Source: Halalkalirubrum salinum (GTDB lineage: Archaea > Halobacteriota > Halobacteria > Halobacteriales > Haloferacaceae). Taken from it: a stretch of 64,000 nt of DNA. The translations under genes were made by a program, and so were the position numbers. This document shows, piece by piece, positions 667-3,741 of this stretch (position 1 is the first letter of the stretch; every line of letters starts with the position of its first letter). The DNA is taken from assembly GCF_005543295.1 (NCBI RefSeq), contig NZ_SRSG01000024.1, positions 1-64,000 on the forward strand, read 5' to 3'. The notes below the pieces were generated by a model. The model saw only the letters and a program-made list of their open reading frames with translations, had not been told where the DNA came from and ran no database searches.

Positions 667-744
667 GGTGTGAGGATCTACAGAGAAAGCAAGGTGTGAG
701 GATCTACAGAGAAAGCAAGGTGTGAGGATCTACAGAGAAAGCAA
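667..744. repeat. Three perfect 26-bp tandem repeats
   Basis: The unit begins GGTGTGAGGATCTACAGAGA and occupies 667-692, 693-718 and 719-744 with no mismatch. It lies in the 203-bp gap between the truncated exchanger and the 3' end of the BREX operon, right beside a fold-back element. The lack of divergence suggests recent slippage or a selected binding array. There are no spacers, so it is not a CRISPR. Confidence 0.95.
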
Positions 745-751
745 GGCGAGT

Positions 752-828
752 GCCTCGGGGTCATACGGAAGACGAAGTATTCCGTGATGACGAGAGACGA
801 AGTTTCTCGAACCACTTGACCCCGAGGC
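752..828. other. Three-way-junction fold-back element at the BREX operon end
   Basis: A perfect 12-bp inverted repeat (752-763 with 817-828, GCCTCGGGGTCA) encloses two smaller hairpins. Hairpin 1 is ACGGAA (765-770) with TTCCGT (780-785). Hairpin 2 is CGAGA (791-795) with TCTCG (805-809). Both hairpins carry the same internal sequence GACGAAGT, and pairing can continue inside it to leave a GAA apex. The element ends four bases before the brxHII stop codon. It could be a transcript-end structure or processed RNA of the BREX operon, or the end of a mobile element. The pairing is seen directly; the function is not known. Confidence 0.75.
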
Positions 829-831
829 GGT

Positions 832-3741
832 TCACAACGGGAGGGTAAGACAGATGTTCTCGACGGTTGGTGCCATCGAGATGACCTGTGTTTTCCGTTG
901 GAGCTCGCGGCGGCGCTTTTCGATTCGCTGCTCGAGTTTCGAAAGTCGGTCCTGTTGGTTTCGAATCGCAATATCCATATCCGATCCTTGCTTTGCTTTG
1001 CGTTCGTAGTCTGCGATGAACAGCTCAATGCGTTCGCGCTCAGATTCTGCGTACGCTCGGAGATCGTCGATTTCCTGCTGTGTCTCCTCGTTGCGTCGTT
1101 TCTGAAGTTCTTCTTGTCGTGATGCGACACGCTGGCTGACGTAGCGCTCCGCAGCCGACCGTATTTCGGGCTCGTGTTCGAGAAGCGCACGGACGCGATC
1201 GCCATCCGGTGAGCCAGTAATCGTGTTCCCCTCGACGATCTGCTGACCGAGGCGGCGGTGTGGATCCCGGTGTGTCGCATCCACGAAAACGGGAAGAACC
1301 TCCTCGCGAATCACCGCACCCGTGCCGTCTTCGAACCTGACGCGGTAGTTGTATGTGATGCCGGGATTCTCAACGAATGGGAGCAATTTGAGTCCAACGG
1401 TGCCGTGTTCGGTGTCGAGCACGTGTTGCATCAGCTCTTGGACCACGTCGGCGTCAGGCGAGATGTACTCGAGTTCCTCGTGGTCCATCGCGAACGCTCG
1501 ATCGAAGGTAAACGGCCCGTAGGACCCGTCATCTCGTGATCGTCGAAGTGAGTTGGGGAGCTCAGCGCGGTAGCGTTGCTGCCCAGTCTGTTCGACGTGC
1601 CCGCCGAGCGCCGAAATACCCCGCTCGAAGAACGCACGAATGTCGGACTCGCTCCCGTAGGCGTCCGCAGAGTGATCCATCACCGCTTGAATTTTCTGAC
1701 GGCTCTCCTCGTCGAACGTGCTGGTGTCGATGAGGCTTCGCTCGTACCACTCCGCGAGTGTCCGCTGGCGCTCGTGGATGAGTTCTTCGAGTTCCGCCGT
1801 GGTCGCTCTCGCTGGTTTGTCGTTCCGGATCGACTCCATGATGAGCGAGTCAACGTTGATATTATCGAGCACCCCCAGCACGTCTGCGGTGTTCCCGAGC
1901 TGGCCGCGGATGCTTTCGACTTTGTCCTGGAGCATCTCGAAGATCTCACCCTCGCGGGTATCCTCGAACGTGAAGTTCCAGACCTTCACTTCCTGCGCTT
2001 GACCGTATCGGTGGAGCCGCCCGATCCGCTGTTCGAGCCGGTTGGGATTCCACGGTAGCTCGTAGTTGATCATAATGTGGCAACTGTGCTGGAGGTCGAT
2101 CCCCTCGCTCGCAGCGTCAGTCGCGAAGAGCAGCCGGGACTGGCCGTGGTTAAATTCGTCTTCGATCTTCGCCCGATCGTCTTTGTCGACGTCACCGTGG
2201 ATAACGAGAATCTCGTCGGCCCACGGTTCGTCTTTCACTAGCTCGAGGAGGTAATCGAGGGTGTCTCGATACTCGGTGAACAGGAGTATCTTCTCGTTCG
2301 GGTTCGCTTCGAGTAATTGCTGGATGTAGCGGCGGACTTTCTGGGCTTTTGAATCGACTGGGATTCCTTGGGCAAGAGAGAGGAGGTCACGGAGCGTTTC
2401 GATTTCTGCTTCGAGCTGGGCATCGCTCTCGGTGATGGTGAGGCCGGCGAGTTCTTCTTCTGCGTGTTGTTTGTCTGCTTCGTCGAGATCTTCGCCTTCG
2501 AGATAGGCCGTGGCCGCTTCTGAGAGCGATGTTGTCGTGGATTGCTGGTCGACCATCTTCGCCAGGCGGCGGCTGAGGGTGGCGTTGATCGCGCCAATAC
2601 TACTCACGAGGCGCTTTTGCATCAAGGCCATTGCAAACCCGACTGCGGGCTCGTTGAGCTGCTCGGAGCGATTGTAGACGTGTTTGACGTACTCGGTGAC
2701 GGCCTCGTAGAACTGCCGCTCTTCGTGTGTCCGCTCAACGGGGATTGTTCCAACGTCGCGATTGGGAAAGATCCGTTCGCCGTTATCGTCGTAGATCGTT
2801 TGCTTGCCGCGACGCATCATCACCCGATCAACAGCCGCTTTCGAGAGCTCCTGGTCCGCAGCGACGAGGAACGGATCGATGTATTCGATGAGTGAACGGA
2901 AGGCCTCCCCCTTGCCGTCGTGGGGTGTCGCACTGAGGAGCAGTAGCGAGTCGGAGTTGTCGGCGACCCGTTCGACCACCTTCGAGGTCTTGCTTGGGGA
3001 CTCGCCTCGTTTGGCCGCTTTGTGTGCTTCGTCGACGACGACGACGTCCCAGAACGCGTCATCGAGTTCGTCTCGAAACTCCGCTTGCCGGAGGAACGCC
3101 ATGCTCGTGACCAACTGCTGGTGGGTTTGTTCCCAGATGTTCGCTTCCTCACCGAGCCGGCGGCGCTCGCCTTCGACCCACTGTCGATCGGCGGGGGTGA
3201 GGGTGATGTCGAAAAACCGGTCCATGTCGCGAATCCACTTCTTTTGGAGGTGCGCCGGGACGACGAACAAGACGCGATCGGCGCGGTTGCGTGCGGCGAG
3301 TTCTTTGAGGATGAGCCCCGCCTCGATGGTCTTGCCCAACCCGACGTCGTCGGCGATGAGTGCGCGCTGGCGGAGCTTCTGCATCACCCAGTTCACGCAG
3401 GCCAGTTGGTAGGGTTCGAGGCGGACGAGGGAGTTCGAGATGCTGAGCAGCTGCCCCTGCTCGTGGGCGATCTGGAGCTGGAGCGCCTGCGATCGGAGGT
3501 CGAACCACTCGGCGGAGACGGATTCGTGTTTAGGGTGCAGTTGAGACGCAACTGCAGGTTCGAGCGCATCCAGTCGATCGCGCTTGCGCTCAATTTCGAC
3601 ATCGTCGATACAGACGGTCTTGACGCCGACGTTCTCAATGTAGGCTCTGAGATACTCGAGATCGCCGACGGCGTAGGTCTTGATGACCTCGGCGGGCTGG
3701 TTATTGAGACGGATCGCGTCTCCGGGTTCGAGATCGTACAT
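832..3741 (-). CDS. brxHII: BREX helicase BrxHII (SNF2/RapA-like DNA helicase)
   Basis: A 969-aa superfamily 2 helicase. Walker A is DDVGLGKTIEAG near residue 130 and the DEAH box is VVVDEAHKA near residue 235. The C-terminal helicase half has TDAASEGIDLQ and the arginine-finger segment QRIGRLHRYGQ, typical of HepA/RapA-like enzymes. The last 100 residues are rich in Arg, Glu and Gln and probably coiled-coil. It is the last gene of the BREX operon, with its ATG 8 bases after the brxZ stop. In BREX type 5 this gene takes the place of brxL. It is expected to move along or remodel DNA as part of the defence or methylation complex. The stop codon abuts the fold-back element. Confidence 0.85.
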   Translation of the reverse strand: MYDLEPGDAIRLNNQPAEVIKTYAVGDLEYLRAYIENVGVKTVCIDDVEIERKRDRLDALEPAVASQLHPKHESVSAEWFDLRSQALQLQIAHEQGQLLSISNSLVRLEPYQLACVNWVMQKLRQRALIADDVGLGKTIEAGLILKELAARNRADRVLFVVPAHLQKKWIRDMDRFFDITLTPADRQWVEGERRRLGEEANIWEQTHQQLVTSMAFLRQAEFRDELDDAFWDVVVVDEAHKAAKRGESPSKTSKVVERVADNSDSLLLLSATPHDGKGEAFRSLIEYIDPFLVAADQELSKAAVDRVMMRRGKQTIYDDNGERIFPNRDVGTIPVERTHEERQFYEAVTEYVKHVYNRSEQLNEPAVGFAMALMQKRLVSSIGAINATLSRRLAKMVDQQSTTTSLSEAATAYLEGEDLDEADKQHAEEELAGLTITESDAQLEAEIETLRDLLSLAQGIPVDSKAQKVRRYIQQLLEANPNEKILLFTEYRDTLDYLLELVKDEPWADEILVIHGDVDKDDRAKIEDEFNHGQSRLLFATDAASEGIDLQHSCHIMINYELPWNPNRLEQRIGRLHRYGQAQEVKVWNFTFEDTREGEIFEMLQDKVESIRGQLGNTADVLGVLDNINVDSLIMESIRNDKPARATTAELEELIHERQRTLAEWYERSLIDTSTFDEESRQKIQAVMDHSADAYGSESDIRAFFERGISALGGHVEQTGQQRYRAELPNSLRRSRDDGSYGPFTFDRAFAMDHEELEYISPDADVVQELMQHVLDTEHGTVGLKLLPFVENPGITYNYRVRFEDGTGAVIREEVLPVFVDATHRDPHRRLGQQIVEGNTITGSPDGDRVRALLEHEPEIRSAAERYVSQRVASRQEELQKRRNEETQQEIDDLRAYAESERERIELFIADYERKAKQGSDMDIAIRNQQDRLSKLEQRIEKRRRELQRKTQVISMAPTVENICLTLPL

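Follow-up and report, generated by a model that had tools for sequence, protein, structure and literature searches.

The window analysed here, a 64,000-nucleotide stretch of Halalkalirubrum salinum DNA, carries a BREX operon whose BrxHII helicase (832–3741, minus strand; PADLOC BrxHII, 1904.9 bits) has PglZ, PglX and BrxC as upstream neighbours. At the 3′ end of brxHII lies a 106-bp element (730–835), the gene upstream of which encodes a Na/Ca exchanger. Within it, positions 752–828 were originally predicted to form a perfect 12-bp outer stem around two hairpins, a geometry that is confirmed: the outer arms GCCTCGGGGTCA (752–763) and TGACCCCGAGGC (817–828) are fully complementary, and the hairpins (765–785 and 791–809, plus strand) are supported by both folding and covariation. 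The plus strand folds at −44.1 kcal/mol versus −27.9 (sd 3.0) in dinucleotide shuffles (z −5.4, reached in 0 of 200), and the minus strand has a z of −4.4. Since 17 of the 633 tiles (101 nt) of this GC-rich window have a lower fold energy, the raw energy is not extreme; it is the comparative record that sets the structure apart, and energy alone would not suffice.

What had been read as a single structure is really two nested mobile elements, an outer one with IS605-type ends and a 54-bp unit inserted into it. The 12-bp stem is accordingly composite, with 9 bp coming from an IS605-type palindrome and 3 bp from the TCA start of the inserted unit; these extra pairs exist because the unit in the window happens to begin with TCA, most copies beginning with TCG and having a G-U closing pair instead. 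The GACGAAGT shared by the two hairpins, which was thought to be a repeated exposed motif, is indeed present in both hairpins of the window copy, but as a conserved loop motif it had to be rejected, since only 2 of 243 copies of the unit have it in both hairpins, and its double occurrence here is a coincidence.

The outer element is a terminal-only PATE, that is, what is left of an IS200/IS605 transposon once everything between its two near-terminal palindromes has been deleted and the left end is fused to the right, and its 106 bp (730–835, plus strand) comprise a 52-bp PATE and the 54-bp insert. Its limits come from flanks aligned on the palindrome. In 107 left flanks, information rises from about 0 to 0.5–1 bit exactly at (T)CTAC (729–733 in the window), an analogue of the IS200/IS605 target/cleavage sequence, and in 75 right flanks conservation ends exactly after TTCAC, that is, at position 835, where the right terminus GGTTCAC (829–835) stops. 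Beyond both boundaries the flanks are random sequence, and because of these conservation limits the copy in the window is taken to run from 730 to 835. The near-terminal palindrome consists of a left arm, GCCTCGGGG (752–760), recognised from unit-free palindromes of the same genome, and of the rest of the loop (CTTGA) followed by the right arm CCCCGAGGC (815–828), all on the plus strand. Besides the window copy, the genome holds 11 such unit-free palindromes (GCCTCGGGGCTTGACCCCGAGG), and three of these lie just downstream of PF07282 TnpB domains, a position that corresponds to the right end of IS200/IS605-type elements. The flank AGCAAGGCGAGTGCCTCGGGG is also found again in this genome. In relatives, structures of the window type occur downstream of TnpB genes, one locus has the left end, TnpA (PF01797), TnpB and the right end in order, and intact TnpA and TnpB elements share the PATE ends. 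The suggestion that the structure might be a mobile-element end was thus well founded, the element having sharply bounded IS605-type ends together with an inserted mobile unit.

As in other PATEs, the near-terminal palindrome is related to IS605 transposon ends, the boundaries are defined, with a targeting oligonucleotide and unrelated flanks, and no transposase is encoded in the 106 bp; with no ORF between 730 and 835, this is not an autonomous IS200/IS605 element. No inverted repeat was seen between the PATE ends, and the empty site is deduced from diverged orthologues only. Across the left junction, a 26-bp sequence (GGTGTGAGGATCTACAGAGAAAGCAA; 667–746, plus strand) occurs three times in a perfect tandem array, a triplication that covers the flank and the first 17 nt of the PATE left end. 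A second, truncated window-type copy of 48 identical bases (L002, C19:98000-98047) is present in the same genome, cut inside hairpin 2 and beside a low-complexity stretch near a contig end. At two further loci (L085, at C62:123002-123344 in the same genome, and L007), the element measures about 340 bp; both palindromes are present along with a conserved core that does not code for protein (GGGTCGTGGTGGAGCGACC...CACGGACACA...GTGTTCGGGTG) and is met again in several genera, and this may be a separate non-coding PATE or an RNA.

The association with the BREX operon, at whose end the original prediction located the structure, is accidental. The PATE landed on the final codon of brxHII, where the GTGAA at its end restores the stop codon of the gene (TGA, 834–832), the window protein ending in LTLPL. 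None of ten BrxHII orthologues with readable 3′ ends has such an element; their proteins finish with ...LALPV, ...LTLPI or a similar sequence and the genes have stop codons of their own, and because of this the PATE is an insertion and not a part of the operon. A stable hairpin this close to the 3′ end of brxHII would, to be sure, suit a terminator or regulatory RNA of the operon, but the orthologues lacking the element led us to reject this, and it is extremely unlikely considering also that the same element, partial or full length, is found next to unrelated genes in 135 of the 171 genomes of the family and that an Rfam search of the region returned nothing at the gathering score (the sole sub-threshold match, TCL6_1 with 23 vs 60 bits, lies off the structure). 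At brxHII, the unit probably has no cellular role other than that of a tolerated insertion at a gene end. Elsewhere in the genome, at four loci (L003, L004, L005 and L007), PATE ends also appear to supply the stop codon of a neighbouring gene (on one side through the TGA of GTGAACC, on the opposite side through CTACAGATGA or CTACAGATAA), and PATE insertions may be tolerated or favoured at gene ends.

The inner element, TCATACGG...CTCGAACCA (761–814, plus strand; a match to model R1, with 243 copies), sits at a G^C step of the PATE palindrome loop and is a discrete, separate entity, as comparison of IS605 right ends from the same and from foreign genomes has shown. Among ends with identical flanks, some have 54 extra nucleotides between GGGG and CTTGACCCC and others do not, the insert having the layout TCGTWCGG-hairpin-CCGTGATSACGAG-hairpin-CTCGAACSA. 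For the whole class, the consensus is TCGTT-hairpin-CGTGAT/SACG-hairpin-AACSA, which is near two-fold symmetric; the version with GATCA/ACGA is two-fold symmetric, and the symmetric form has 7-bp terminal inverted repeats (TCGTTCG/CGAACGA). Insertion is precise and leaves no visible duplication of the target: of 243 distinct copies, 230 are flanked by G on the left and C on the right, and the length of the unit is exactly 54 bp in 173 copies and 52–62 bp in nearly all.

Covarying copies of the structure, for which the original prediction had proposed a search, do exist elsewhere, and the covariation is strong. Over 78 copies, 96.1% of the cells in the three stems are paired, a figure that falls to 53% or less when the partner is shifted by one column, and there are 166 doubly changed cells versus 53 in shuffles (0 of 500 shuffles as high). 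Beyond the stems, linker bases 788–789 pair with the terminal bases 813–814 (GATSA with ACSA, plus strand): GATGA goes with ACCA (G-C) in 195 of the 243 copies and GATCA with ACGA (C-G) in 32, and G-G or C-C is found in none of the 243. The shuffle test points to a structure under constraint, and part of the covariation may have a mutational origin: template-switch mutation can produce covariation in perfect inverted repeats without selection, and at the hairpin tips GAA and TTC frequently interchange, as expected from template switching. Counts of G-U and A-C (45 vs 38) do not single out a functional strand. Larger palindromic elements with two twin-hairpin units, one per arm, were also seen (L258 and L257).

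A covariance model built on the insert alone, with which 171 family genomes and a phylum sample were scanned, matches 138 of the 171 family genomes and, in the phylum sample, 76 of the 81 genomes from Halobacteriales and none of the 312 from outside this order; in viral contigs, no exact match was found. IS605-type palindromes hold 190 of the 243 copies and the other 53 lie elsewhere with the same ends, the sites including left and right IS605 ends, sequence resembling the tnpB 3′ end, tnpA, unrelated repeats and, again outside palindromes, long GC-rich repeats and positions adjoining tRNA ends. At one site, the unit is found in either orientation (L284 and L304). Junctions are known in Haloquadratum both with and without the unit, and the adjoining sequence, when read in translation from unit-free copies, seems to resemble a tnpB 3′ end. 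Because the same ends are found in so many unlike contexts, the unit is a repeat of its own. Outside IS605 palindromes, a preference for hairpin loops was considered and is unsupported, insertion sites being no more hairpin-like than other GC sites (6.1 vs 5.2 expected enclosing pairs). Long hairpin-rich haloarchaeal repeats with AAAGCCCC...GACTGAAAGGGGC or CCCCTTTCAGTCCC (L274-L276, L281-L283, L287, L296 and L307) often bear the unit after GCTCGCTG.

This range of sites is hard to reconcile with the idea that the twin hairpins were never inserted but belong to the IS605 end itself and are selected there, be it as a Y-shaped structure recognised by TnpA or as an enlarged form of the right-end hairpin in the TnpB guide RNA. 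Such a role would agree with the strong covariation, with the occurrence of the unit in many genera at left as well as right ends of complete elements and next to TnpB genes, and with the right-end hairpin that exists in haloarchaeal guide RNAs (PMC12558985). The same tnpB right ends also occur without the unit, however, as do most palindromes of this genome, and the unit has the same ends in tnpA, tnpB-like sequence and unrelated repeats. A three-way junction evolved as an IS605 end was in fact our first idea, which was dropped on account of the copies in tnpA and unrelated repeats, and an integral end, now largely refuted, is very unlikely.

Nine tnpA genes bear the unit at one exact site, directly before the HUH-coding stretch LHISPDHVHLF, and 12 are unit-free. 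On a tree of these 21 genes, parsimony requires 8 gains or losses, at least 4 of which well supported branches make unavoidable, and the nine unit-bearing genes form one clade in none of the bootstrap trees. Since they are scattered on the tree, the unit has entered or left this site on several occasions (the pattern could stem from precise losses rather than gains). This recurrence weighs against a passive spread in which palindromes exchange the unit through gene conversion and template switching, with no transposase involved. The 190 copies in related palindromes would make homologous exchange easy, and the inversion-type changes at the hairpin tips point the same way, but exact unit ends in unrelated contexts, where the common flank is G and C only, and the repeated use of one tnpA site call for a step in which the unit is ligated by its ends, and we therefore regard passive spread as unlikely.

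In tnpA, the unit brings in an in-frame TGA just upstream of the HUH-coding sequence. In eight of the nine genes this is the sole stop codon within the compared stretch (one of the eight, L321, is altered at its C-terminus), which fits recent insertions and occasional removal of the unit alike. These open frames, together with the scarless unit ends, could mean that the unit is removed from RNA in an intron-like manner, or precisely from DNA, so that unit-bearing tnpA stays functional. Scattered recent gains account for the intact frames equally well, though, many copies are in non-coding DNA, and the flanks when checked by hand have no bulge-helix-bulge of the kind found in archaeal introns (the tnpA junction has no 4-bp helix with 3-nt bulges, and such an intron was rejected), all of which renders removal highly improbable. 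Selection on unit-bearing tnpA after insertion (dN/dS) was set aside as a line of evidence, the ratio being uninformative given scattered gains. Haloarchaeal tnpA genes also have double-hairpin inserts of two further, unrelated types, about 45 and 49–51 nt long, at two other sites, after VWC (L078, L079, L080 and L337) and after CPK (L079, L080, L081 and L319); in the genome studied here (C6:51273 and C10:210968) one such insert is 49 nt long and shifts the frame. In L371 (G096:C2:487019-487469), tnpA is split at residue ~70 by another insertion of ~45 bp.

The reading that we favour, and hold to be rather probable, is that a terminal-only PATE at the end of brxHII contains a nested mobile twin-hairpin unit of a class of its own, which would move as single-stranded DNA. 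The two hairpins of the unit would replace the left- and right-end hairpins recognised by an IS200-type Y1 (HUH) TnpA, presumably supplied in trans. We infer this mobilising enzyme from the scarless insertion, the presence of both hairpins on the same strand and the close association with IS200/IS605; archaeal TnpA is known only in the IS200-type subclass 1.1 (PMC6006769). The usual effect of the unit would be to interrupt IS605 elements, either via the tnpA stop codon or by enlarging the end palindrome. A bolder proposal, which is unlikely, is that the unit homes to IS200/IS605 elements (their ends, the tnpB 3′ region and one tnpA site), moves as single-stranded DNA and suppresses these transposons order-wide; in its strongest form, the unit would be removed from RNA or DNA and the host gene would stay usable.

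PATEs were already known, and what is new is a nested, order-wide and site-recurrent twin-hairpin repeat. Owing to its minimal size, its recognition by a covariance model, its presence in nearly all Halobacteriales and its repeated use of one exact tnpA site, the movement of transposase-free small mobile repeats in haloarchaea becomes testable with one enzyme and one 54-nt substrate. In addition, nested elements often remodel haloarchaeal IS605 ends and guide-RNA hairpins, which bears on the annotation of TnpB guide-RNA ends.

No description of the 54-bp unit was found in the openly accessible literature, which was the scope of our search. For the outer element there is a clear precedent in the 52-bp terminal-only PATEs of Haloquadratum walsbyi, which Dyall-Smith and colleagues attributed to deletion between two near-terminal palindromes (PMC3119063). 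The window copy is like them in its near-terminal palindrome, its IS605-type ends, its non-coding nature, the loss of its core and its length of 52 bp without the insert, and it differs in the additional 54-bp twin-hairpin insert in the palindrome and in the adjoining BREX operon. The right-end hairpin of omega RNA (PMC12558985) equals the outer palindrome where this lies next to tnpB in relatives. At the window locus, by contrast, there is no tnpB and the twin-hairpin insert is additional.

Two inverted hairpins with outer tags (GTAG/CTAC) occur in REPIN or BIME elements, which are associated with TnpA_REP (RAYT). The unit has the same arrangement, with TCGT/ACGA as tags, but it has neither GTAG nor CGTC, its conserved outer bases being TCGT and ACSA, and unlike REPINs it is often inside transposon genes. 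Short mobile two-hairpin units are also known from fungal and algal mitochondria as double-hairpin elements (DHE), which are organellar and were likened to the unit by description. The nearest described relative, also compared by description, is SMR-A of Haloquadratum (HqIRS42/43/55, PMC3119063); the movement of such small repeats in haloarchaea was described as enigmatic in 2011 (PMC3119063). Like the unit, SMR-A is transposase-free, has terminal inverted repeats and no target duplication seen, and prefers the near-terminal palindromes of PATE/IS605 elements, where most copies of the unit are found. The unit also inserts in tnpA and tnpB-like sequence, and whereas SMR-A is ~110 bp long and near-identical within its family, the unit falls short of that length at 54–62 bp and is variable in sequence, conserved in structure and order-wide in distribution.
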